From Acanthamoeba castellanii str. Neff (taxonomy: Eukaryota > Discosea > Longamoebia > Acanthamoebidae): a stretch of DNA of 22,294 nt. The notes below the pieces were generated by a model. That model was given only the letters and a program-made list of their open reading frames with translations. It had not been told where the DNA came from and searched no databases. The stretch lies in the NCBI RefSeq assembly GCF_000313135.1, contig NW_004457673.1:18568-40861 (forward strand), in the 5' to 3' direction. Made by a program: the position numbers and the translations under genes. Positions 1 through 22,280 of this stretch are shown here, in pieces; position 1 is the stretch's first letter; each line of letters opens with the position of its first letter.

Positions 1-1304
1 CAACCTGGCTTGGTACCCCCCCCCCAATACTCTCACCGCACACACGCACACTTACTTTTATACAACACTACAACACGACACGACACTCACGTGCGCACAC
101 AACGCACAGGAACGCCTGGAAAGACTTTTCCTACGTATGTCGAGGAGCACTATGTGCGGGACATAGAGGCCGCCGCACCCCAAGCGCTGCGCTTCGCCGG
201 GGCGGTGTTCGTGGAGGCCCTAAGCGATGAGCCAGCCAAGGAGGCCGCCTGGGTCCAGTCCCTGGCCGATCAACAGGCACCCGGGCACCAGTGGCTCAAG
301 GCCATGGTCGCCTACGCCTACCTCCCCGACCACGACATCGACGCCCAGCTCGCCACCCTCGCCCGCTTCCCTCTCGTACTACCACACACCACACACACCA
401 CACACCACACACTACTGTTGTTGAAGCTGAAGCTAACGCTAATGATGATGTGCTGTGGTGCGGCGTTGTGGCCGCAACGCACAGGTGAAGGGCATTCGTC
501 AGATCATCAACCACCACCCGGAGAACCCAGGCCTGACCTGGCCCAAGGTGCACTCGGGCGACTACCTGACCACCGACGAGAAGTTCCGCCACGGGTACTC
601 GCTGCTTCAGAAGTACGGCCTCTCGTTCGATCTTCAGGTAACCCACGCCCTAACCCGCCGCAACCAAGACAAGTTCTAACGCACACGTCATGACACACAC
701 ACACACACACAACACACACACACACACACACACACAAACAACACACACACACACACAGGTGAATCCGCACCAGTTGAAGGATGCGGCGGCGTTCGTGGCG
801 CAGTTCCCGGAGATTCCGGTGTGCCTCAACCACCTGGGCTGCCTGCCGTTGAAGGAGGGCACGCCCGAACAGCACGACGCGCTCATCGCCACGTGGCGCG
901 AGGGCATGCAAGCGCTGGCCCGGCTGCCGCACGTCTACGTCAAGCTCTCGCAGCTCTGGTTCTCCAAGGACGGCTGGGAGAAGAAGGGCTCCGCCGAGGA
1001 GCTCCTGCTCAAGTCTCTCGTCAAGGTTCGATCACGCACACGCACACGCACACCGCACACGGCACACCGCACACGGCACACGCACACGCTCAAATGGGGA
1101 CTGCAGGAGACGCTGGATCTGTTCACGTCGGAGCGCTGCATGTACGCGTCCAACTTCCCGGTGGACAAGCTGTCGCTGACGACCGCCGACATGTACCACC
1201 GCTACCTGGCCTGGAACGAGGAGTGGGGCCTCGACGCCAAGGCCCGCGACGACCTCCTCTACGCCACCGCCGCCAAGTTCTACCGCTTCAACAACACCGA
1301 CTGA
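1..1304 (+). CDS. Amidohydrolase-2 family metal-dependent hydrolase (5' partial)
   Basis: This is the 3' part of a gene that enters from the left edge. Modelled exons are 1-12 (tentative), 110-375, 485-637, 759-1025 and 1107-1304, with TGA at 1302-1304; introns after 375, 637 and 1025 are all phase 0. The joined protein resembles the amidohydrolase-2 / TIM-barrel metal-dependent hydrolase family (lactonase- and decarboxylase-like enzymes, cytosolic). Visible family signatures are VKGIRQ after the second intron, the strand motif CLNHLG with its metal/catalytic-type histidine, and the late YASNFPVDKL motif whose Asp corresponds to the conserved active-site acid. The N-terminal HxH metal motif must lie upstream of the window. 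Substrate cannot be assigned. Introns are almost pure CA-rich repeat. The first donor (GTACCC at 13) and acceptor (108-109) are less certain than the others. Confidence 0.82.
692..758 (+). repeat. (CA)n microsatellite in amidohydrolase intron
   Basis: An interrupted CA run fills the distal half of the 638-758 intron and provides its AG acceptor at 757-758. A similar CA/CACG-rich run fills the next intron (about 1030-1090). Long cysteine/valine-rich frames on the opposite strand here are translation artefacts of this repeat. Confidence 0.9.
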
Positions 1305-1646
1305 GTGGTTTGTCCACTTCTGCGAAACGGTGATGGTGACGTGGTGGACGGATGGTAATAGTGATAATGATGTGATGTTGTTGGTGTCGGATGATGATGA
1401 TGATATGTAAAAGAAGATTGATAAAAATCATTGAAATAATGAGAGCTGGGAGGACCAAAAAACGGTGGAAAAGTAGTTGGCCTATCCTTCTCTCCTGAAT
1501 CGCCGCCACAGCTGATTGGCCGCAGGCGCAACAGTTTTGCGGCGAGATCCGCACTAGTGCCCTGGGTACAAGTAGCAGAAGAGAGCAAGAGGAGGGAGGA
1601 CACTCAACAAGCCTCACACAAACACACACACACACACTTCCCTAAG
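1305..1646 (+). promoter_or_regulatory. Intergenic region: amidohydrolase 3' end and aquaporin promoter/leader
   Basis: This 342-nt spacer has no convincing gene. It starts with a TGATGA-rich, AT-leaning stretch (about 1330-1440). It then becomes GC-richer and contains an inverted CCAAT box (ATTGG, 1515-1519). The leader just before the aquaporin ATG contains a CA run (about 1617-1637). No TATA element stands out. Promoter function is inferred from position only. Confidence 0.4.
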
Positions 1647-3081
1647 ATGCCGTTCAAGTTCCCGCATGGTGCGACGAAGGTGTTCAACGTGCTGGCCCCG
1701 TTTGTGGTGGAGTTCATAGGGACCTTTTTCCTGGTGACGGCCATCGGCCTCAACTCGCTCCACCCCGCCGACCAGGGCTCACTGGCGCCCTTCGGCATCG
1801 GCTTCACCCTCGTCGTGGTCGTCTTTGCCGGCGGCCACATATCCGGTGCGTTCCCCCTTCCCTATATTCCCAATTGATGAAGAGATTTCATTTTTGAATT
1901 TTAATTATTCTGTTTCTGACCCTATTTTCCCTCCAGGCGCACACTACAACCCAGGTACCGCACTACTGCGCCACAATTAAAGAGGCTGGGCCAGTGATTA
2001 ATTTAATTTTTTATGTTTTAATTTACTTTCATGTTTTTATTATCTTTTCATTTTTTTTCCGTGCAGCGGTCACACTGGCTGTGTGGCTGAGCCGGAGAGG
2101 GAAGATCAGCGGCGTGGACGCCATCATCTACGCCATCGTGCAGGTGCTCGCAGCCTTCGTCGCCGGCCTCTTCTACTGGTTCATCAAGGACAACACCTTC
2201 GCCGTAATGCCAGGTTCGTGTTGCCTGCTTCGTCGTCGTGTTGCGTGTGCGGTGATGCGTGGCGTGTGGTGGCTGACACTCGCGTGTTGCGACGGTGTGC
2301 TCACATCATCACAGGCCCAGAGGGAGAAGGGCGTGCCCTGTTTATGGAGGCGGTGTGGACGTTCCTCCTGGCCACGGTGGTGCTGCAGACGGCTACCACC
2401 GAGACCCAGGCCGGCAACTCCTTCTTCGGCCTCTCCATCGGCATGACCGTCGTTGCCGGAGCCATCACCGCCGGCCGTACGTCGCGCCCAGCCACTGCAT
2501 TCCTCTGTATTTTTTCTCATATTCTGCATTCCAGCCATTTCCGGTGGTGTGTTCAATCCGGCCGTGGGCACGGGCATCCTCACGGTACGATTTATAATTA
2601 TTTTGATTATTGTTGCTTTTATTTTTTAGAAATATGAGTAATTTGTTTTTAATATTATTGATGGTTGCAGGTGAACGCCCTCCACACGCGAGAGGCCGAG
2701 GACCTGAAGTACTTGTGGATCTACTGGGTCGGGCCGCTTGTCGGCGGCCTGTTGGCCGGCATCACCTTCTGGTTCACCAACAGGTAACCCTCTTCGCGCG
2801 GGCCGCCATCAAGACACGCCCATCTAACAACACACACGACACGACCAACGACACGACCAACGACACGCATGACACTCTTCAGGCGAGAGTTCCATGATGA
2901 CCCGACCGTGGAGGTGGTCGACACGCACCTGTTCTCGGCGGACGTGCGGTCGATCGCCGACGTGTCGGCGCAGAAGCGCGAGGGCGGCCGAATCATCAAG
3001 GGCATGATCAAGAAGGAGATCACCCACCTGGGCGGCCACATGTCGCCCGATGAGACCGACCCCATGATCAACTACCACTGA
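1647..3081 (+). CDS. Aquaporin / MIP-family channel
   Basis: Exons are 1647-1845, 1937-1954, 2067-2213, 2315-2476, 2535-2584, 2671-2783 and 2883-3081; the frame stays open and gives 295 aa. The protein has the six-helix, two-half MIP fold: helices near residues 14-32, 40-60, 85-108, 127-148 and 152-172, and a sixth in exon 6 (about 205-226). The two re-entrant loops are NPA at 71-73 (context GAHYNPAVTLA, canonical) and NPA at 183-185 (context SGGVFNPAVG). It should conduct water and/or small neutral solutes across the plasma or contractile-vacuole membrane; the substrate is not readable. Two oddities: the first NPA loop is built from an 18-nt exon, and the residue after the second NPA is Val186 rather than the usual filter arginine. 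A tail of about 65 residues after helix 6 is hydrophilic and probably cytosolic. The start was chosen at the ATG following the CA-rich leader because it gives a short N-terminus directly before helix 1. Confidence 0.93.
2829..2876 (+). repeat. ACACGACCAACG-type minisatellite in aquaporin intron 6
   Basis: Short tandem copies of an ACACGACCAACG-like unit lie in the last intron. The same variant unit recurs at both ends of the 14519-14609 array in the SOD gene, and simpler ACACG runs occur near 72-90 and 7888-7906. Confidence 0.75.
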
Positions 3082-6800: not shown

Positions 6801-8725
6801 TGGGTGGAGATGCCGTACTTGAGGAGCTGGGCCTGCAGCTCCTCGTCCTCGGCCAGCAGGCACACCTGGACGCGGGGCTCCATGTTGTAGTGCTGCTTGT
6901 GGCGGCCCAGCGGGTCGATCTCGCCCACGGCCAGGAGGCCGTCGTCGATCATGCGGCCCAGGTACCACAGGCTCTGCGCCCAGATGAGGGGCACGTTCTC
7001 GTTGGGGTGGCGCGGCATGGAGTGCGGCTGCTTCTTCTCGCGCTCGACGTACTCGAGCGGCACATAGTAGAGTTCGGGCAGCAGCCGGACGCCGTTGACC
7101 ACGACGGATACCTTCTCCAGCCGCTCGCGATACTCGGCCGTCTGCTCCTTGTTGCCGGTGAAGAGCCCGTCCAGGTAGAGATAGGTGTAGAACAGGGGCC
7201 ACTCCGACTCAATGTTTTCGAAGCGCTTCAGCTCCCACGGCTCTGTGCACGTCAACAACAAGAACGAAAAAGAACGAAAAACGAAAAATAGTTGATAAGC
7301 GAAATGTTGTGCTTTTGTGTCAAAAGCCAGCAAGTGAGAGATGATTGACGTACCATACCAGATCCTGGTCTTGTCTTCCAGGACGGTCTGGTGGCCGTCC
7401 CTCAGGAATCGCTTGCAACCGTACTCGCCCTGGAGCTTGGTGATCACCTCGTTCTTGGTCCGTTCCACCAATTCCTATACAAACCCAGGCACGCCGGCCA
7501 AGGTCAGCCCACCACCTTGTCGCTGCCGGGCCAGAGCGTCGCTTATCAAAAAAAAAACAAAAAAAAATCGTACCTTGTCTTCGACGGCGAAGGCGGGGAA
7601 GGAGATGACGCTGAGCAGGGCGGCGTCGACCTCTTTGGAGAGCGACTCGCGGGGCAGGAGGTTCTCGAGGGTGATGCGGTTGCGACCGATCTCGTCGCCC
7701 AGCACGTGGATGACCGACGCGTGCGAGCCGTAGCAGCCGAACAGGTCGACGCCGTTGATCGACTCCAGCGCGGCCTTGGCCATACCCACCGACGACGTGT
7801 TCAGCTCCACGTAGCCGTTGTTGATCTTGTTACCACGCTCCCAGATACCTGTGTATGTGTCGTCTCATTGTGAGCACACACGCACGTGACACGACACGAC
7901 ACGACCGCACAAGATTGTTACCGTAATCGGGAGTGCGATAGGCGCGTTCGATGTAGAAGACGAGGTTCTGGACGAAGGCGACCTCGTCCTTGGTGAAGAT
8001 GATGCGGAGACCCGAGGTGGTCATCTGGGCGAGCATGAGCAGGAAGATGGAGGTGGCATCGAGCTGCAGGTGGCCCCAGGCGTGGTCGGCGACGACGGTG
8101 TCGCCGGTGGCCGTGTTGTACTTGGCGTGCAGGCAGTCCCACTGGGCGTGCGACTTCTTGAAGGCCTCCACCTTGGGCGCTTGTCGCATCATGCTGAACA
8201 GCAGACCGCGCATCAGCTTCACCACGCTCTGTCATAGCCACACCAACACCAGCATGTTGTGAGTACTTCTACTGCCACTACATGTAGTAGTAGGAACAAT
8301 AATTGGTGTTTAAGAAAGGGAACCTGCTCGAGCTCGTAGGTGCGACCGTCATCGTCGTCTATCTTGCGGTAGGCCAGAGCCAGACCCCAGATGGACAGGA
8401 TGCTGTACACGTTATCTCGCACCCTGGACGTACCAAACAAAGAAGAAGAAAGAAAAGAATATCAGAAAAGAAACAGAAACTCAAAAAGCAAAAGAGAAAT
8501 GATGGCCAAAACAATCGGAATTTAGGAGCTGGCGTGAAGAAGATGATGATGATGGAGATTAAGTGATGGCCTGGCAACGTACCAGGCGTCGTTGTAGTCG
8601 CCGTGCTGGTTGCACGCGGTCGAGGCGGGCAGGAGGCCAGTGACGGGGTGCTGCCTTGACAAGATTACCGAAGAGATCTCGTCATAGTAGTTGTTGAGCT
8701 TCTCTCTCATTTCCTTCGAGAACAT
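3843..8725 (-). CDS. Phosphorylase b kinase regulatory subunit (alpha/beta type)
   Basis: Fourteen exons on the minus strand: 8725-8583, 8423-8324, 8228-7922, 7848-7574, 7474-7354, 7242-6739, 6641-6162, 6071-5925, 5832-5581, 5487-5321, 5202-4947, 4865-4766, 4571-4236 and 4089-3843. They join in frame to 1144 aa, close to animal PHKA/PHKB size. The N-terminal part (about 1-480) is the glucoamylase-like (GH15-type) domain, with landmarks [12 protein letters not shown] near residue 45, [13 protein letters not shown] after exon 2, [18 protein letters not shown] and [10 protein letters not shown]. The C-terminal part has the family's EMTPGE segment and [10 protein letters not shown]. The family scaffolds and regulates the kinase that activates glycogen phosphorylase in the cytosol; in this organism the partner catalytic subunit lies outside the window. 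The protein ends in KLASH, so the CaaX prenylation box of animal subunits is absent. The ATG at 8725 is preferred; an in-frame start at 8815 would add a CA-derived, Thr/His-rich leader that looks untranslated. Confidence 0.95.
4121..4205 (-). repeat. 12-nt tandem repeat in intron 13 of the phosphorylase-kinase gene
   Basis: The unit CGTGGCGTGTGT (+ strand) repeats with period 12 at 4138, 4150 and 4162, then degrades to CGTGT units. It fills much of the 4090-4235 intron. Confidence 0.85.
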
Positions 8726-9683: not shown

Positions 9684-12600
9684 TCATGACCGCGACGATC
9701 TGGTCTTGGCTACGCCCGGCGCTCCGGGCAGACCGTACTGGTAGAAGAGCGTCGCCGCGCTCAGCAGGAAGGGTCCCACAATAAACCACTGGAAGATGGA
9801 AGTGATTGTGCCAATCAATTGTGAGCGACTGTCATACGTCGAGCTGAGCCGGAAGGAGGGGCTTTCGTACCTTGAGTGTTCGCGCGAAGTTGGCGTTGCA
9901 CTGGATAGTGAAGCTGTCGTGCCACTCCTCGCTCACCTTGTTCATGCCCACCAGTTCCACTCCGATGGAGTTGCTCACCGTGCTGTGATAACAGAATCAG
10001 TCAAGCTCAACTTCGCCGCGGGGGCATTACTACGTACGCTGGCACGTCCAGAGCGACTGAGTAAGCGCCCGGATCCGCGTAGGTCGTCTCCAGCACCTTC
10101 TTACCGCCCACGTAGAACTAAGCGAACACACACCGCACACACACACAGGGAATCAGACGTCAGCCCAGGCTGATGATTGTGGCAGCGGTTTGGAGGGGCG
10201 AGGCGTACGGTGAGATGGTAAGGGGCGAGCGGCGTCTCTGCGTTGTCGATGATGCGGAAGGGCACGGTGAAAGTGCGACCGGTGACCTGGCGATACCTCT
10301 CGCCCTCCACGTAGATGCCGTACTCGCCACCCATGCGGCCCTGCCCGTTGCCTCGCCTGCAAAAATAAAATTCCAAAATGAGAAACAAATATATAGAATA
10401 AAACAATTAATTAATTAATTAATTAAACAAAAAAAAAAATAATAGCCACGTACACCGCGGCGAGAGGCAGCAGCGGAAGCGAGGTTGTGAGGGCGAGCAG
10501 GCGGCCTGAGGTGGTGGCCACCACCAAGTGGACCTCACCGTTGCCCAGCAGGTCGTCGGCCAGCACCATGCCCAGCCTGCTCACAAGTGGCCACGCGAAC
10601 GGACGAACGCGCATAGTCAGCAATGAGTCGCGCGAGAGAACACGTGTGTTGGCTGATGGTACGAGTAGTGGCCGATGTCGATGCGCTCGATGGCCGGGGT
10701 GAGCGGGTGGATGAGGTAGAGGATGCCGTTGTCGCCCGTGACGATGATCAAAAGGCCGTCGTCGGCGTCCCTCGTCCGCGGGAGCAACAGCGGGCGGTCG
10801 TGGATGCCCGCCTCCAGCCGCATCGGGAAATTCTTCAACACCTTGCCCGTCTTGGCGTTCCTGTTGTTCCACACGCAGTGCATGTCGGCGCAGGATCAGT
10901 GAATATTGCTCCTCGCTCTGCACGTTTAAGGCTGCGACGTACCAGGCCCACACATGTCCGAGCTCGGTGGCCAGCACGATATCGATTTGGCCATCACCGT
11001 CAATGTCGCCCACCGACGGACCCTGATGAATTATCCATAATAAAATAATGGAATAAATAAATGAGAATTCAGATATGGATAAATGAAAAAAAGACAAAAG
11101 AATTGGATTAATAATAAAGGAAAAATGAATAAAGAATAAAGAATAATGAATAGATCGCGTACCACATGAGATGATGGGGTGAATTGGGCGCTCCACAGCT
11201 CCTTGCCCTGGTGGTCGAAGACGGCCAAGTTGCCGTTGATGTCGTTGGCGATGATGTCGAGCTTGCCGTTGCCGTCCACGTCGTGCATGGCCACGCGGCC
11301 GTGGATGCTGTCCATGGAGATCGGGAACTGATCGTCGTCCCTCACCTTGCCCGTCTTGCCCTCGAGCAGGTACAGCACGCCCAGGCCGGTGCCCACCAGA
11401 ATCTCGACGTTGCCGTCGCCCTCGATGTCGCCCACGCTCGGCGACTCGTAGATCTGGTGGTGGTTGCGCCGTGTGAGCTAAAGAAGAAGAAGAAGAACGA
11501 AGAAGAACGAAAAAGAACGAAGAAGAACGAAGAAAGCGTACGTAGGGAGAGTAGGCGCGGTCGGCGAAAGAGAGGTCGAGCGGGGTGTGCCACTTGAGGG
11601 TGCCATTGGGGAGGTTGAAACACACAACTCCGCTGGACGCGTATTTGCTGTCGTCGGCGCCCTGCTCCTCGGCCCGCGCGCTGTAGTTCGTGTTCACACA
11701 CACACACACACACACACAAACGCACGCACACGCACACGCACGCACACACACGCACACGCGCGCGCGCGCGCACACACACACCGTCACGTCAGACTAGTCT
11801 GCCTTCGGGCTCAGCTTTCTTTTGTGCGCAGGTGGAAGAGGACAACTTACGCGTAGAGGTAATAGGACACGGCGACCACGAGGTCGTCGAGGCCGTCACC
11901 ATCGACATCGCGTACGACTGCATCCACCATGCGAACATACAGGAGATGACGTCAGCACTTTCTCCCATAGTATTTATCAACTACTCATAAATCAGTGTAA
12001 AGGGTCGCGTTGCGCGGCGTACCGGGTTCGGCGAGGACGTGCGGGTCGAGCACTACGACGTTGTCGTCGGGCTCGGGGATGGCGAACTTCTTGGCCGGCC
12101 GGACGCGATTGAGTCGCTGCTCGCCCATCATGTTCTCCTTGTCCACTGGAAGGAACAGCTGAAGCAAGATATATACACCCAGCGTTAAGCTGATGTTCGC
12201 ACACACACACACACACACACGCACGACACACACCGCACGCGGACGTACGTCGAGGCTCTTGATGCCAGCGGCAGGTAGCCAGCCCTCGAATCCCTTCCAT
12301 ACGGCGTCTTCGGGCTCCTTCTCCGCCTCCACGGCGCTCGCGCCGGGCGAGCTCTGCGGTACGGGCGAGGTTGTTCTGGGCGGCGAGCCGATGTTGGGCA
12401 CCGGCGGGTTGGGCGGGAGCGGCGCGCCGGGCGGCTGGTCGAGGCCGATGCCCAGCCCCGTGGCGAAGTCGCGGCTGATCTGGTGGACCTTCTTCGCGGC
12501 CCGGTCGGGGTCGCGCACGTAGAGCGAGAGCGAGGGCAGCACGTTGCGGGACTCGAGGCCGTCGAACCAGCCGCGCGGGACGGGCAGGTGCGGGATCTCG

Positions 12601-13602: not shown

Positions 13603-16136
13603 ATGAGTTCAGCAGCTGCACTGCTAACGATTAGCGTGGCGCTCCTCGCGCTCTTGACTTTCTCGAATGCTCAGCCATGTACGTAAAGTGATTTTCGTAC
13701 GATGATGAATGAATTTACAAATCAAGTTGGCCTCTTTCTCATTTTCTCACCACATCATTACTTCCTTCTTTTTCATGTTGGGGTTTGTGGGCCTCCAACT
13801 ACTACTGCAGTCCGCGCGCAGTGCGTGTTCACCCCCACGACCGACTACGGCAAGGCGCTCAACATTCGCGGCCACCTCTCCTTCTACGCCGCCACCCTGG
13901 GCGACGTACGTGGACATCACCACCCATCACCTTTTCTTGTCGCTGCGACTCACCATCGACTTCAGGTGCGCGTAGGAGCGCAGATCACCGGCAACCTCGG
14001 CACCGCCGAGTATGCCATCAGCATCAACGACGTGCGTTTCGTGTGTATGCGCGCGCGCGTGCGCGCGGTGGTTCGTGTGCGTGTGCGGCGATGACTGCGC
14101 GTGTGGTGATTCTCAAGCACCGCCCGGCTTTGGCAGTTCGGCGACATGACGAACATGAAGACGGGCGAGTCGGCCGGTTCCCGTTTCATTGGCGCTGGCA
14201 GCAGCTCCCACGGCTGTCCGCCCAGCCCGGAGCGCCGTGCTGGCGACCTGGTACCCTCACACCACGAGCCGTAGAAGAAGAAGATGGAAGAACAAAGAAC
14301 GAAGTAGAACGAAGAACGAAGAATGGTTATTGGCGAGGTGAAGTATCGTGAATGCCACACGAAAAGAGACGGAACCAACTACTAATGTTTCTTTCACAGG
14401 GCAACTGGCCTGCGAAGGACGGCGTAATCGATGCCTCCCAGAACGTCAGCTTGGTCGAGCTGGTCGACGAACAATAGTACTCACAGCTCTCCTGTATGCC
14501 ATTTCCACTTTTATTCTCACGACACGACCAACGACACGACACGACACGACACGACACGACACGACACGACACGACACGACACGACACGACACGACCAACG
14601 ACACGACACATGGCGCGAACAAAGCTCGATTGTGGGCCTGTCCGCGGTGCTGTACGCCAAGCCCGACAACTGCAGCGACCCAACAATCCCCGACAGCAAC
14701 CGACTCGCCGTGTGCGTGATCGGCATCGCCAACTCCGATAACAACCCCTCGCTCAGTATACGCCATCCACTGCTTCTCACGTCTGCATCACTAGGTCGCT
14801 CACAATCTGTGTCGTGTGTGTCGTGTGTGTCGTGTGTCGTGTGTGGTGTGTGTCGTGTGTCGTGTGGCGGATAGACGCTAATCCGAGCCTCGCGAGCGCG
14901 GTGGCCGTGCTGCAGCCCACCACGAACTGCGACGCCAGCTGCTCCGGCACCGTCTGGATCTTGGCCACTTCCCAGGTCAAGTCCTCGCCCCTCCCTCCGG
15001 CGCTTCGCCTCTGCTGCGAGTCTCACATTCTTAACTCCGATCTGGTTCCGAACACGTGGGCAGGGCGTGCAAGTCGTGGCCAGCGTGGCCGGTCTGAAGG
15101 CCGGCGCCAAGCACGGGTTCCACATTCACCAGGTATCTGAAATATATATCTTTGTTTATTTAGTTATTTAGTTATTCACTGATTTTAACTGCAACAACCA
15201 ATTATTTTGCAGTATGGAGATCTTTCGCTCAATGACGGCACCAGCGCTGGCGCGCACTGGAACCCGAACGGCCGCAACCACGAGCTGCCCGGAACCAACC
15301 CCCGCCACGTCGGCGATCTGGTTCGCCCCCCTCTCTTGCTCTTTCCATTTATACGCATGGACCAACCAATTGCACGCCTGGAAATCAATTGGGTTGCAGG
15401 GTAACATCCAATCGTTCGATGCCCATACCGGGCTCGGGTGGTACAACTTCACCGACGCCAACATCCCCAACGTCTACTCCCTCCTCGGCCGCTCCGTACG
15501 TTCTTGTTTTTTTTTGTTTTTTGTTTTTTTGTTTTTTGTTTTTGCTCCTCCGCCCTGACACGTGGTCACCTCAGGTGGTTGTCCACGCCGACGTCGATCA
15601 CGGCTCTGGCGCCGGCTGCGATCAAGCTGGTACTCGTGTCGTGTGGCGTGCATGTGTCGTGCATGTGTAGTGTGTCGTGTGTCGTGTGTCGTGTCGTGTA
15701 GTGAGTCAATAATCCTCATAAAAGATTAATAGGAACGGCGGGCAAGCGGCTGCTGATCGGCGTCATCGGTGTGGCCAACACGGCCACCCTGCCGCCGGCG
15801 CAAGTGCCCATCACCGTCGACAACAAATACGAGAACCTCCCCTGCGTCACCTCCCCCTCGCCTGCCCCCAAGCCCCCGAGTACGCTCACCACTTTGCACG
15901 CACACGCACACGACCGCACACGCACAACCGCACACGCACACGACCGCACACGCACACGAACTAAATCGTTGATGTGGGGCGCAGCCGAGGACAACAGCGG
16001 ACTGAAGACCGGTCTGGCGATCGGGTGGGTGCTGGTGGGCGTGCTGGCGCTGGTCGTCATCCCCGGCATGATCGCCTACTACTGGCTCAAAATCCGGCCC
16101 GGTGCCGGCGGCGGCGAGTTCTACCGCAGCGTCTAG
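13603..16136 (+). CDS. Membrane-anchored tandem Cu/Zn superoxide dismutase-domain protein
   Basis: Thirteen exons: 13603-13678, 13811-13905, 13966-14031, 14137-14250, 14400-14476, 14625-14755, 14875-14975, 15064-15132, 15213-15320, 15400-15495, 15575-15629, 15733-15879 and 15985-16136; 428 aa. Order: signal peptide (about 1-24), SOD domain 1 (about 28-185), SOD domain 2 (about 190-345), Pro-rich stalk (about 365-378), one transmembrane helix (about 389-411) and a 17-residue tail. Domain 2 keeps all metal ligands and the guide arginine: His240, His242, bridging His258, His266, His275, Asp278, His315 and Arg335. It should dismutate superoxide outside the cell or in vesicle lumens. Domain 1 has Ser76, Asn78, Arg95, Arg113 and Tyr153 at the corresponding sites, keeping only His104 and Asp116, so it is almost certainly not catalytic. 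Both cysteines of the usual intrasubunit disulfide appear absent from domain 2. The polar tail after the helix argues against a GPI anchor. It is head-to-head with the DEX1-like gene. Confidence 0.93.
14519..14609 (+). repeat. (ACACG)n pentanucleotide minisatellite in SOD intron 5
   Basis: About 90 nt of a 5-nt CGACA unit fill the 14477-14624 intron. Each end of the array carries the variant unit containing CGACCAACGACA, as in aquaporin intron 6. Another intron of the same gene (about 14812-14870) carries the opposite-sense GTGTCGTGT type, and 15898-15958 carries CACACGACCG units. Confidence 0.9.
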
Positions 16137-16282: not shown

Positions 16283-18018
16283 ATGGGGCGGCCAGCGCTG
16301 AAGATTTTAGTGGTATTGGCGACAGTGGCGGCTGTCGTTTGCAGTCTGCCCCACCAGGGCGAGGCGGAAGATGTGACGTGGTTCCAGGGTTTCGAGAACT
16401 CGTCCTCGTCGGCCCCGGACTTCGACGCCCACGCAAGACTGGCGGCCTGCCGCAGTCTTGTCGCCACGCCCGCCCCCGTGCGAGTCATCGACTGGAAGGA
16501 CCCTCTGTTCGTCATATGGTTCCCGCCCGCCAGCAACAGCAGTTTTGAGCATGAGTGGCTTGAAGACACCATCCTCGCTAAAGTCAACAGGTGGCGCCCA
16601 CGTCATGTGTGTGTGTGTGTGTCACGTGTTCTTACCACGCGTGTGTGGTGTGCCATTCTCTGACTCACATGTTGGTGCACAGGCCCGTTATCTATCACTA
16701 CCCGGAAGGGTGCCACCTCAACGTCCGTTATCGTGGAACGCATGTGCCTAAGCACGTCCTCTACGTCATTGGGGCCGGTACACACGAGTAGCCGCGCTTG
16801 GATCTACAACGTTCGTCGCGCTCACCATCAGTTTGCCTGTGTGCGTGCGTGCGTGCCTGCGTGCGCGTGCGTGTGCGTGTGTGTTTTGTTGTTGTTGTTT
16901 AGCCCGAGCGCCAGAGAGCCTGGCGCAGTGCCTGGAGGAGGCTCATGCACTGCGGGCGAAGCCAAACAAGAGCGCTGATGAAGCGCTGATGGCGCAGGCA
17001 CGGATCGGGCTTGTGCATCTGAGCGACGAGCACATCGGTTTTGCGGACCTCTGCTCTGCCGAAGACTCCATTGAAGCTCCCATTAGCCACACAAGGTCAT
17101 TCACGCACACGCACCACCGCACACACACTACCGCACACACTGCCACACGCACACCTGACCATTTGACATCGCAGCACAGATGCGACTCGCGGATCGTGCT
17201 GCTGTACCCGCTGGTGGACTACGTGCTTCGCAACCACTGGCACCCGAAGCTGAAGGTTTACGGCGACAAGGTTCGGTGGTTTCCACTGGGCCACGGGTCA
17301 GGTATGTAACAAAAAAATGCATCACGCCAAGCGAGTGCGTGCATGAATGAATGAATGAAGTCAATGGTGTTCGCAGGCTTCGGGCGCCCGGCATCGAACG
17401 CGATCCTGCCGGCTAGCCATCGGAAGTTCCGGTGCAGCTTCCGCGGGGCCAAGTGGGAGAACCGAAGGGAGTTCATCAACGCCATCAACAGCTTCGCGGC
17501 GCAAGGCCGGCTCAACTGCCAGATCACCTGGACTGGCGACTTCAACAAAGGTGAGCCATGGCGAGCGGAGTGGAGGGAAGAGAGAGAGAGAGAGAGTCGT
17601 GCTCAGCACTTGTGTGGTTGATATAATGTTCCACAGGTCTTCCGGTGACCGCCTTCCGGAAGGAGCTGCTGGCATCGGCGTTTGCTCCTTCTCCTCCGGG
17701 CCTCTACAACCCCGATTGCTTCCGTATCTACGAAGCCATGTTCGCCGGAGCCATTCCGATCATACCTCGTCACTTCCAGTTTGAACCTCTGGGAGACCAT
17801 CCCCTTCCCATGGTGACCTCATGGTACAGTGCAAACACAACTGACACAACACAGCCTATTTTCCTCTCACTGCTGTCATTCACAACAGGAGCCAGCTGCC
17901 TGAAACCATCGAAAGGTTGGAAGCAGAAGGCGTTGACGTTGTGCAACAGCGTGTCTTCTCCTGGTGGCACAGCTTTGTTGCAGGACTGCAGACAGAGATA
18001 GCTCTTGTTATTGCATAA
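16283..18018 (+). CDS. Exostosin/RXYLT1-like glycosyltransferase
   Basis: Exons: 16283-16590, 16683-16777, 16903-17095, 17180-17301, 17377-17550, 17637-17823 and 17889-18018; 402 aa. An N-terminal hydrophobic segment (about 5-23) is a signal peptide or signal anchor, so the enzyme should face the ER/Golgi lumen; Asn-Ser-Ser sequons near 51 and 92 suit that. Landmarks in order: VHLSDEH (172-178), a YPLVDYVLRNHWHP segment, FPLGHGSGF, CSFRGAKWENRREF, and the conserved C-terminal block with FRIYEAMFAGAIPI (326-339) preceded by a Pro-Pro-Gly loop. These match the exostosin-like / ribitol-xylosyltransferase (TMEM5) group, including the final WW.S...LQTEI helix. The sugar donor and acceptor are unknown; dystroglycan, the human enzyme's target, is not expected in an amoeba. 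It follows the SOD gene by 146 nt in the same direction. Confidence 0.85.
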
Positions 18019-18323: not shown

Positions 18324-21300
18324 TCAGACGACCTCCCACACGTTCCGCTTCATGAAGGCCTCAAAGAGCTTCTCGCCCAGTCCTATCTTCTTCAGCTCGA
18401 CCAGCTGTATGTTGTGATTTTCAGTCGACTCAGGTACGTCAACCATAACGGAAAGTTGTTTGGTTGGTCGCATTGCAACGCACGACCAATCAATTCAGCA
18501 CACAGGTAAGGTCCGTACCTGGCGGAATGGTCGGTTGTCGATGATGGCCTCGGCCCGCTTCTTGCCGATGCCGTGCAGCGCCAGCAGGTCCTTCATCGAG
18601 CCCGTGTTCACCACGTGCAACACATCCTGCACAACACACACCAACACATGGGTGAGCGCACACCAACACATGGGTGAGCGTTGAGTGGTAAAAGCGAAAA
18701 GCGAAAAGCGAAGGCGAAAGCGAGGTACCTCTTCACGCTCGTCGGCGCCCTGGCGGGTGTTGGTGGCGATTCCGTGGTCTTCGCGGTCATTGTCCTCTTC
18801 ACTGTCGGTGTCGGCCTTCTTGATCCTCTGTGCGCTCTGCCGGGAGGAAACCTTGATGTCCAGGTAGTCGCCATCGTCCTCGCTGTCGTCTCCGTCATCG
18901 TCTTCGCTTTCGCTAAAACGATGTCGCGAGCTCATCTTGCTCTTCTTGTTCTTATCCTCTTCCTCTTCCTCTTCCTCTTCCTCTTCGCTCACCACTTCTT
19001 CTTCCTCCTCCTCCTCCTCCTCTTCCACGCTTTCCTGATCGCTGGCCACCTTTTCCATCACTTCTTCTTCTTCCACTTCTTCCTCTTCATCGACTCGCAG
19101 AACCTCCTTCTCCGCCTTCCTCTCGGTGACCTCGGCCTTAGCTGAGGCGGGTGACGGCCTGAGGCGGACCTTCTCGCGCGCCACAGCCGTGGCCGTCTCT
19201 GCGGATGCCTTCGATGGCTCCCTCTTCGTAGTGGCGGTGGTGATCCTGGTCGCGCCCTTGCTCGAGCTCAGACTCTGCGCCGATGCGGGCCTGCTGCTCG
19301 TCTTGGCCGCCGGCGTCTGCTGGCGCCTCCTCTGTTCCACTCCCACTCGCTCCGCGCTCGCGCTCGCCTGTACACCGCACGCGCACCATCTAAGCAAGAC
19401 GAACTACCATATGTGTGCGTGTGCGTGTGCGTGTGCGTGTGCGGTCGTGTTGCGTGGGGCGTGTGCGGTTTTTTTTTCTCTTTCTCTCGTTTTGAAAGCT
19501 GAGGAGAACGAACCTTTCGGGTGGCAGGCTGCTTGGTCCCGCTGGCGTTGTTGTGATCGTCGCAGTTGTCAAAGGACAGCTTCTTGGGTCCGGTCAGTAG
19601 TGTCTTGTTCTTGCTCTTGCCGTCGTCTGACAGCGTCAACGACTGCATGAGCGACGACAAGCTCGACGGCTGGAATGGCGTGGAGGCATCCTTCTTGGCT
19701 CTCCTCTCTAAAGATAAGAGAGAAATAAATAACAACGCAGTGTAGAGTGAGTGGTGTGCATGCATGTGTTTATAGATAATATATATACACACGCACCACA
19801 CATGTACGGTGGCACGTGTGCGTGTGCGGTGTGTACCCTTGAGAGCGTTGACGTCCGCGGGTGTTGCGGCCTCGGTCCGTTTACGCTCCTCCAGCTTGGC
19901 GATCTTCTTTCTGATCGACGGCTCCTTCTCCGGCATCACCTTCATCACTACGCACGATGCCAAATAGATAAATAAGTATAAAGTTGATAATTATGATCAT
20001 AAATGATTATAATTATTGAAATCAAAAAAGAATGGCGGGCACGCACGTCGGTTGTAGTAGCGGATAGCCCGATCGTACTGGCCCTTCTTCGCGTACTTCC
20101 TCGCCCGGCGGGCCATGTCCACGCCCGTCGTCACTTTCGTGAACGGCGTCAAAAGCAGAGCCTGTGCGCATGTGTGCGGTGGTGCGTGTTGCATGTGTGT
20201 CGTTAGGCCGAGGTGTTGTACACTAAAAAATGTTGTTTTTTGTGCGCACCTTGGAATCTCCGTTGCCGTTCGAGGCTGCCGGGTCGACGTTGTTGCCGCA
20301 TTCGTCTTCGTCGTCATCATCGAAGCACTGCTCCAGGTGGCGCTTGTTGGTCTCGACCAGGCGCCGCTCCAGCTCCTTGAGCATCCGGAAGTTCTCGTTC
20401 TCCATCTTCGACTTGAGCACCTCCTCGCCCCCAAACATGTCCTTGATCCGCTGCTCGAGCGCCTCCTTCGTCTTCTGCGCGATGAAGGCCTCCAGGTCGC
20501 CCACGTCGATCTTCTGCCCGTCGCCACCGCCGCCAGATGATCGCTCCTTGGCCCCAACGCGCCTGTTGTTACCGTTACCGTTGTTGCCGTTGCTGCGGTT
20601 CTCCTTGCCGGCCGCACCGGGCATGCGCTTCTTCAGCTCCAAGTACTCCTCCAACAGCGCCTTGCGCGAGGCCTCGTCTGCACCACCAGTCGAGATAGTG
20701 ATCGGTCGACCAGCAATAATTAAAATTAAAATAAATACAAGAATAATAATATATTGATTGGGGCGGCATGGCATACCGTCGACGGTGTTGACGACGGGCT
20801 TGTTGATGATCTGGCGCGACTTGGAGGCAAAGTTGAGGGTGTTGAAGGTGTCCTGGTAGTGGTTGACCGAGGGCGAGATGTTGGCGATCATCACGCCATA
20901 GCTGCGGCCGCCGAGCGAGTCCTGCAGCAGCCGCGTGAGCTTGCTGTCGCGGTACGGGACCCGGCTCTGTGCGCGCACAACAGCCCCAATCGCACGTTCC
21001 GACGTGAGTGGAGTTGCGTGGTGGGAAAAAACACGCTGGCTGGTGGCGATGGTGGTGAGGATCACGTACCGATCCGTCATTGAGCGCGTTGACGACCTTG
21101 CCCAGTACGAACAGGGACTTGTTGATGTTGCTGCTCTCGGTCATCCGAATGCCGATGTTGTCCGTCCGGCGATTGTCCTCGCTGCCGGCCAAATCGATCA
21201 GGTGCAGCTTGCCGACGTACTTGCGCTTGCCTTCCCTGTGCTTCACCTGATATGCCGCGTGGAGAGTTTGTGGGGGGGGACAATCAATTGTTAAGAACAG

Positions 21301-22280
21301 TGTAAGTCAAGAAAGACAATAGTGTAGAGACCGCTGAGGTACCGTCAAGATGAGCACGGCGTGGCTGCGGCTCGAGTGGGCGTTGAGGCTCGTAGGCGCC
21401 ACCGTCCTGTTCTTGCAGCCCTCGGCGTAGGTGTTGGCAAAGTCCTCGTATGTGCGCACGGGCAACTGTGGTGGGCGCAGCCACGCAAAAAGACATAAAC
21501 AAACAGACAACAAACACACAGACAGTTTAGTGGTGGCAGAAGGTGATGATGATGATGAAGCGGTCGAGGAATACCTGGGCGAGGTCGGGAATGATAATGT
21601 TCTTGTTGGTGTCCTCGCGAATGGGCAGGTCCTTGGTCTTGGGCCGCAGCAGGTCGAACACCTTCTCGTTGTAGATCTCCAGGTAGGAGACGGTGACGGA
21701 ACACTTGCTGGCGTGCGTCCCCTTGGAGGCCAACGCGGCCGTGTGCTGGGCGGCCAGCGACACCACCTTCCTCGCCACACGGGGGATCAGGCCCGGCTGC
21801 TCGTCCGAGCCCTGCATCGTGAAGGTCTTGCCTGGGAGCAACAACAGTGAGATCAAAACAAAACAGATTTGATTCGATGATGCTGGTTAGTGGTGAAGAG
21901 GAAAAGTGTGGGAAAGGGGTAACAAGTACCTGCGCCGGTGATGCCGTAGGCGAAGATGGTCGTGTGAATGCCCTTGAATACGGAGCCAATCATGGGCTCA
22001 ATTTCATTCTTGAACAGATCTTCCTGCTGCGAATCGGAATCGTACGCTCCATCAAAGCTTCAAGGTGTTTGGCGAGCGTGAGATTGGTGAGATCCATAAT
22101 TGTGATGGGAACCCATCGAAAGGGAATGTACCCATAGCTGAGTGCGGGAGCGTGCGCACTTTGGCGCAATTCGATGGACGACTTCTCTGACACCACCACG
22201 CAACGCTTGTTGACCTCCTTCGCCACGAAGGGCCGAATGCGTACCACCACCTTCACCTTCGAGGGCGCCGGATCCGTCAT
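18324..22280 (-). CDS. Kinesin-10 family motor (KIF22/Kid-like) with C-terminal HhH
   Basis: Thirteen minus-strand exons: 22280-22132, 22057-21930, 21831-21575, 21465-21343, 21246-21070, 20966-20777, 20677-20250, 20161-20047, 19947-19837, 19707-19514, 19367-18729, 18626-18519 and 18404-18324; 899 aa. The N-terminal motor domain (about 5-330) shows VVVRIRPF, the P-loop GITGAGKT (88-95), switch I NAHSSRSH (206-213), switch II DLAGSE (237-242) and [18 protein letters not shown]. The EQPGLIPR and [12 protein letters not shown] context is kinesin-10. A coiled coil follows at about 345-465, then a TPR-like helical pair (about 495-550), a Ser/Lys-rich linker and a long acidic Glu-run region (about 680-730). 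The C-terminus (838-899) has the [13 protein letters not shown] helix-hairpin-helix and a second [10 protein letters not shown] hairpin, as in chromosome-binding KIF22. It should be a nuclear/spindle motor pushing chromosome arms during mitosis. The start gives a motor domain directly at the N-terminus. Confidence 0.94.
18637..18680 (-). repeat. Perfect 22-bp tandem duplication in kinesin intron 11
   Basis: Two identical 22-nt copies (18637-18658 and 18659-18680), starting CACACCAACACATGGG, are followed by GCGAAAA-type repeats up to the splice donor. The exactness suggests a recent slippage or duplication event. Confidence 0.9.
18945..19095 (-). repeat. Polypurine (GAG/GAA)n low-complexity coding tract
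   Basis: On the + strand this is a CTTCCTCTT-type polypyrimidine run inside kinesin exon 11. In the coding sense it encodes runs of Glu with scattered Val, Lys and Asp. The strand asymmetry makes triplex (H-DNA) formation and length polymorphism likely. Confidence 0.85.

Follow-up and report, generated by a model that had tools for sequence, protein, structure and literature searches.

A tandem superoxide dismutase gene of Acanthamoeba castellanii whose first domain lacks the copper ligands: a candidate natural tethered pseudo-dimer

Superoxide dismutase (SOD) folds without a functional copper site occur in several described proteins. Domain II of CCS is a Cu-less SOD fold that docks on live SOD as a heterodimer and, in the human protein, has lost one Cu ligand and kept the Zn site, according to excerpts of PMC13017621. 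The Cu-only SOD repeat proteins (CSRPs) carry extracellular tandem SOD domains, surface-attached or secreted, in which N-terminal Cu sites have been lost and for which a chaperone role has been proposed. In the engineered tethered SOD1 heterodimer 6dtk two SOD units share one chain and one of them is metal-deficient, while a Daphnia vitellogenin has an N-terminal SOD-like domain with lost ligands (excerpts of PMC2678069). Here we consider a gene in a 22,294-nucleotide stretch of the A. castellanii str. Neff genome, hereafter the window. It occupies 13603-16136 of the forward strand in 13 exons separated by GT-AG introns and encodes one 428-residue protein, in the order signal peptide, SOD domain 1 (D1), SOD domain 2 (D2) and transmembrane helix. 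A preliminary description had given its span as 13811-15879, which does cover exons 2-12, the whole gene being larger. We consider the product, with a probability of roughly 0.6, to be a natural membrane-anchored, tethered SOD pseudo-dimer in which D1 is the structural half and D2 the sole predicted Cu,Zn site.

The protein matches the Pfam family Sod_Cu (PF00080) over two stretches and scores 160.5 bits as a whole against a cut-off of 28.9; residues 1-196 alone also exceed that threshold, with 53.8 bits (E 3.5e-14). Ligand positions are numbered as in SOD1, transferred via the amoeba's own cytosolic SOD. All seven metal ligands are present in D2 (H240, H242, H258, H266, H275, D278 and H315), together with R335, and it is through this domain that the protein can be assigned to the Cu/Zn SOD family. 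D1 has two of the seven, with S, N, R, H, R, D and Y at positions H46, H48, H63, H71, H80, D83 and H120. The four Cu ligands and one Zn ligand are therefore absent, S76, N78, R95, R113 and Y153 standing in their place. Every residue that the preliminary description named in the two domains is found in the ligand alignment as stated; it did not record that two Zn-site residues, H104 (H71) and D116 (D83), are retained in D1.

Among the described systems the CSRPs come closest in layout and in their tendency to lose N-terminal sites, and CCS domain II comes closest in the mechanism proposed. The window protein has in common with the CSRPs predicted secretion or membrane attachment (from hydropathy) and an N-terminal repeat without a Cu site. 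CSRP repeats, however, lack the Zn ligands and loop VII. In five fish and mussel repeats the H80 position is E and the H71 position is Q, Y, T, S or gapped, whereas window D2 has every Zn ligand and 19 residues separating H315 from R335. Excerpts of PMC13017621 give four to 12 repeats per CSRP, against two SOD domains here, and contacts in an oyster CSRP model unlike those of the SOD1 interface; for relatives of the window protein a SOD1-like packing is predicted. CCS is a separate chain, whereas window D1 and its partner form one chain, predicted to be secreted, and D1 lacks four Cu ligands and one Zn ligand where human CCS domain II lacks a single Cu ligand. CCS also has ATX1-like and small C-terminal domains; in the window protein Sod_Cu is the sole family found by the Pfam search, followed by a C-terminal hydrophobic segment and short tail. 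Judged by its sequence the window protein is not a CCS. The 6dtk construct resembles it in having SOD1-dimer packing (for the window protein, modelled on relatives) and differs in being man-made from human SOD1, with the deficient unit second and one Zn ligand changed. The Daphnia domain is a single SOD-like unit fused to a yolk protein and not to a live SOD, as the same excerpts of PMC2678069 have it.

By alignment the loss in D1 is selective, the ligands being gone and the conserved non-ligand positions mostly kept. Thirty-two non-ligand columns are conserved in 22 other D1s, four of which lack one ligand. Window D1 retains 28 of these and the D1 of P0002, a relative 59% identical to the window protein, retains 26; when the 22 are left out in turn, each keeps 26-32 of 32-35. 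In the same two domains only two of seven ligand columns are kept (Fisher p 0.004 for the window, 0.012 for P0002), the P0002 sites reading S, N, R, F, K, D and H. Across 26 tandem proteins, a count from which P0004 was omitted as a duplicate of the paralog described below (two of 387 residues differ), 44 of 53 domains have all seven ligands. The nine that do not are window D1, P0002 D1, P0006 D2, both domains of P0042, P0053 D2 and the D1s of P0010, P0048 and P0051, in which the sole change is H80 to S. P0042 D1 has lost one Cu ligand and sits on a long branch. Loss of the form seen in window D1 is confined within this set to the window gene and P0002.

One further two-SOD protein, P0157, was left out of the trees. 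Its first domain (residues 25-186) has none of the seven ligands (A, N, R, G, D, N and N), with N at H48 and R at H63 as in window D1.

How did the two domains arise? The preliminary description proposed duplication of an exon block followed by loss of the metal site in one copy, and the introns, the domain tree and a paralog with a live D1 all back this history. Of the three shared phase-0 introns on which it relied, two are at exactly matching points (before FGD or YGD, and between GDL and GN) and the first misses by one residue, next to a gap. When four and five introns are placed at random over 450 sites, at least two exact matches plus a third within 3 nucleotides arise at a frequency of about 6e-5. 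Each domain block is in addition bounded by phase-1 introns (after codons 25, 186 and 378), making a symmetric 1-1 module that had not been remarked upon. In our model of the cytosolic SOD gene the only intron falls in the loop that precedes R143, and the three shared ones are absent.

In a domain tree with outgroups, from which the partial tandem fragment P0083 was omitted, the D1s of 24 tandem proteins form one set (support 100/99) and D1 and D2 together part from bacterial, animal and cytosolic SODs (96/88). Separate origins of the two domains, which would have spoken against duplication, do not appear in it. D2 is in this tree a grade with D1 inside, requiring two changes, and lies on one side of a branch in 1% of bootstraps; a tree built without those outgroups does separate D2 from the rest by one branch (25 rows, 95/85). 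In the outgroup tree the partner of window D1 is P0002 D1 (100/97).

The host genome contains at least three SOD loci, namely the window gene, a paralog and the cytosolic SOD, as found in searches with Sod_Cu and P0002; three is a lower bound because the genes match exon by exon. The paralog (G000:C161, L003 677-2870; P0004) is a second tandem SOD gene with seven of seven ligands in both domains. Its tandem layout is the same, and it shares ten phase-matched introns, of which eight coincide in alignment column and two, next to gaps, are displaced by one column. It differs in lacking two of the window introns, including the GDL/GN intron of D2, and its protein has no strong C-terminal transmembrane segment (best hydropathy in the last 80 residues 1.08). 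P0003 combines a transmembrane tail similar to that of the window protein with a live D1. On this phylogenetic evidence the D1/D2 duplication is old and took place within one gene, and the loss in D1 is a late event on the lineage leading to the window gene and P0002, since the sister gene of this genome retains two intact domains. A tree uniting the 22 other D1s in one clade is 40 log-likelihood units lower and is not formally rejected by the approximately unbiased test (p-AU 0.062), so it is the support values that place the dead pair within the live D1s. P0042_D1 is placed beside the dead pair with moderate support in two trees, which may be long-branch pull.

Deeper relationships are less tidy. 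A single clean eukaryote-wide D1/D2 duplication was considered and discarded: with Acrasis, chytrid and other repeats added, D1 requires three changes and D2 four (bootstrap not settled). In this wider tree, which left out the fish and mussel repeats and P0157, P0007_D1 falls outside the D1 set, the D2s of P0009 and P0047 fall outside the D2 set, and the deep branching is unsettled. One clade of D1 and D2 with Physarum and P0150 is not rejected (p-AU 0.33), a result that does not show such a clade. Two proteins are off the pattern and were left out of later trees: P0053, whose three full domains group together, and P0054, whose D1 lies beside the cytosolic SOD and whose D2 lies inside the D2 set.

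P0143, a Physarum polycephalum transcript product of 1163 residues, has six SOD domains arranged as three D1-D2 units and then a hydrophobic tail. Its first, third and fifth repeats belong to the D1 set (27 rows, 100/95) and the other three are placed among the D2s (21 rows, 86/86), which argues that the two-domain unit has been repeated as a cassette. The suggestion that the architecture may be amoebozoan gains from these Physarum units and is weakened by multi-SOD proteins in Acrasis and chytrids. The label rests on Acanthamoeba, Planoprotostelium (P0009) and Physarum, most relatives being metagenome or transcriptome records. P0009, from Planoprotostelium fungivorum (719 residues), is deposited as a Rab11-like protein fused to a tandem SOD and is possibly two neighbouring genes joined by annotation. 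Dictyostelium SodC, put forward earlier as a comparable surface protein with more than one SOD segment, is not among the matches listed in three protein searches (38 of 38, the best 120 of 222 and 46 of 46, each search scoring the 8000 or so candidates with most words in common). Excerpts of PMC5758549 and PMC4403905 contain SodC in citations and expression remarks. The closest single-domain relatives among the matches listed (P0055 onward) look bacterial, those named being Mangrovibacterium, Maribellus and Balneolaceae, and they bear on whether the deep origin of the tandem domain is bacterial-like or eukaryotic. No description of a tandem amoebozoan SOD was found in the titles or abstract beginnings of the papers listed in searches of open-licence PMC literature.

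At the C57 and C146 columns Cys is absent from all 48 D1 and D2 domains that 24 tandem proteins contribute. Absence of C57 alone is no mark of the group, since 17 bacterial-type outgroup rows also lack it (12 of them have C146), and these columns do not distinguish the tandem domains from those rows. All 24 D1s instead carry a Cys pair, which in the window protein is C106, two positions past the H71 site, and C159, in the loop that follows the H120 site; we infer a C106-C159 bond. The first Cys of this pair is found in none of the 24 D2s and the second in seven; both are present in all 12 chytrid repeats compared. With no C57 the SOD1-type disulfide step of CCS seems unavailable, and Cu loading in the secretory path would be likely.

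Structure models of P0002 (dead D1) and P0004 (the live paralog) superpose on 6dtk with both domains in one fit, and the P0002 model has a helix at 387-423, counterpart of the C-terminal transmembrane segment of the window protein. Of the three roles earlier suggested for D1, as a dimerisation, chaperone or sensor module, dimerisation is favoured by these models of relatives and a chaperone role would be compatible. A mechanism can be outlined in which D1 and D2 would pack like two SOD1 subunits, as predicted on the relatives, in a protein predicted from hydropathy to be membrane-anchored, which would sit in the plasma membrane or that of the phagosome and face outward with its two domains. 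At the cell surface, or inside the phagosome, D2 would dismutate superoxide. Acanthamoeba makes superoxide during phagocytosis, according to an excerpt of the review PMC8868140, and there would therefore be substrate for D2. D1 would fill the dimer interface and may help D2 to fold and to hold its metals, as CCS domain II does for SOD1.

The alternatives have to be weighed against this. Could D1 simply be a decaying remnant, with D2 sufficient, selection relaxed, and the fold kept only since a misfolded D1 spoils the chain? Identity between the window protein and P0002 is 51-52% in D1 and 73-74% in D2, their D1/D2 distance ratio is 2.7, and the two dead domains have different residues at H120 and at H71. 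Yet at conserved non-ligand positions the dead D1s do about as well as other D1s, the Cys pair is retained and the D1 exons contain no stop codons. Nine pairs with live D1s have ratios of 0.8-1.6 except that of the paralog with P0003, at 2.2 (the dead D1s with P0003 give 2.5 and 2.7). Faster change in D1 is thus not special to the dead pair, and we dropped the rate excess as proof of release from constraint. Overall we think a remnant unlikely. A new binding or sensing role, with the emptied pocket lined by Arg, Ser and Asn and closed by a relocated disulfide, strikes us as more doubtful. Both dead D1s do share S, N and R at H46, H48 and H63 and have R or K at H80, and the dead first repeat of P0157 agrees at H48 and H63; there are, however, two cases only, letters common to sisters are partly inheritance, the P0157 repeat lies outside the trees and nothing points to a ligand.

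Continued metal binding by D1, for instance of Zn through H104, D116 and other residues, would make use of the two Zn-site equivalents that window D1 has kept, but Arg at the H63 and H80 sites, and R, F and K at H63, H71 and H80 in P0002, make it very improbable. Least credible of all is that a faulty gene model or assembly has produced an apparently dead D1. The best protein match to the window product, the A. castellanii Neff protein P0001 (94% identical over the whole query), was deposited with 445 residues and departs from our model at two splice points: the first six exon-3 residues of D1 (VRVGAQ) are missing and 23 residues of the intron ahead of D2 (window 14976-15063) are retained. Alignment with relatives backs the present model at both places, where P0001 seems to have been mis-spliced, and the ligand-site changes are in both models. 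P0002, a separate sequence record, has the same changes at H46, H48 and H63. We also checked the reading frames for exons that might restore the histidines, a possibility raised by the preliminary description. The three forward frames of 13603-14874 contain four HxH motifs; one of them, out of frame at window 14016-14031, overlaps the S76-D79 codons, and the other three are not just before the FGD exon. We take the overlap for coincidence, as the flanking residues match relatives only in the used frame and P0002 also reads S-I-N.

Several observations nevertheless count against a tethered pseudo-dimer with D1 as its structural half. The distance ratio for the dead pair fits simple relaxation. 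The interface is partly altered: R115 is L in both dead D1s, as in five of the 22 others, and F50 is A in P0002. Cu ligands have also been lost in D2 of P0006 and of P0042, the latter affected in both domains, so the half that dies is not always D1. The structure models are of P0002 and P0004, the former standing in for the window protein, and the D1-D2 packing is modelled, not measured. Architecture, ligand loss, old duplication and late selective loss are read from sequence and phylogeny.

A wider proposal can be made, tentatively and with the odds against it. Amoebozoa would on this view have surface SODs of a separate class, in which two Cu,Zn-SOD units are naturally tethered as a pseudo-dimer and D1 is held together not by C57-C146 but by a disulfide joining its zinc loop to its electrostatic loop. 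Tethering would free either half to lose its metals, so that in different lineages D1 (window protein, P0002) or D2 (P0006) may now be a metal-poor regulatory or folding partner, with arginines replacing the metal charges in window D1.

Exon structure is set out in Table 1. Short tandem repeats (CGACA and GTGTC types, identified by eye) fill several introns, at 14530-14610, 14800-14870 and 15640-15700.

Table 1. Exons of the tandem SOD gene, in window coordinates, with the residues and intron phases assigned to each
Feature	Position	Strand	Content
Exon 1	13603..13678	+	Start codon and signal peptide (residues 1-19, hydropathy 2.03); phase-1 intron after codon 25
Exon 2	13811..13905	+	First strands of D1; then phase-0 intron, codon 57
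Exon 3	13966..14031	+	D1 S76/N78 at Cu-ligand sites H46/H48; then phase-0 intron, codon 79
Exon 4	14137..14250	+	D1 FGD, R95 (H63 site), H104 (H71), C106, R113 (H80), D116 (D83)
Exon 4 end			Phase-0 intron at GDL/GN, codon 117
Exon 5	14400..14476	+	D1; then phase-2 intron, codon 142
Exon 6	14625..14755	+	End of D1: Y153 (H120 site), C159, R169 (R143 site), VIG interface strand; phase-1 intron, codon 186
Exon 7	14875..14975	+	Linker and first strand of D2; then phase-0 intron, codon 220
Exon 8	15064..15132	+	D2 Cu ligands H240, H242; then phase-0 intron, codon 243
Exon 9	15213..15320	+	D2 YGD, H258, H266, H275, D278; phase-0 intron at GDL/GN, codon 279
Exon 10	15400..15495	+	D2; then phase-0 intron, codon 311
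Exon 11	15575..15629	+	D2 Cu ligand H315; then phase-1 intron, codon 329
Exon 12	15733..15879	+	End of D2: R335, VIG strand, then linker; phase-1 intron, codon 378
Exon 13	15985..16136	+	Predicted transmembrane helix ~389-409 (hydropathy 2.51), short tail, stop

Neighbouring exons were examined at 654-1874 (+), 7833-8231 (-), 11034-11477 (-), 17627-17998 (+), 18498-19403 (-) and 21310-21786 (-). Matches in neighbouring exons are to Amidohydro_2, MIP (aquaporin), Glyco_hydro_15, FG-GAP repeats, a helix-hairpin-helix motif and a kinesin motor; those to RXYLT1 and an exostosin GT47 domain are both below the cut-off. Two of the nine neighbouring stretches searched gave no match.

Whether an inactive SOD fold might act as structural partner to an active one has been debated on the basis of CCS, animal CSRPs and engineered SOD1 heterodimers linked to amyotrophic lateral sclerosis. 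The window gene offers a natural single-chain candidate, and the live-live sister gene in the same genome allows a direct comparison of dead-live and live-live forms. Tandem surface-type SODs with a lost N-terminal site would, on this evidence, not be confined to the opisthokont Cu-only line.
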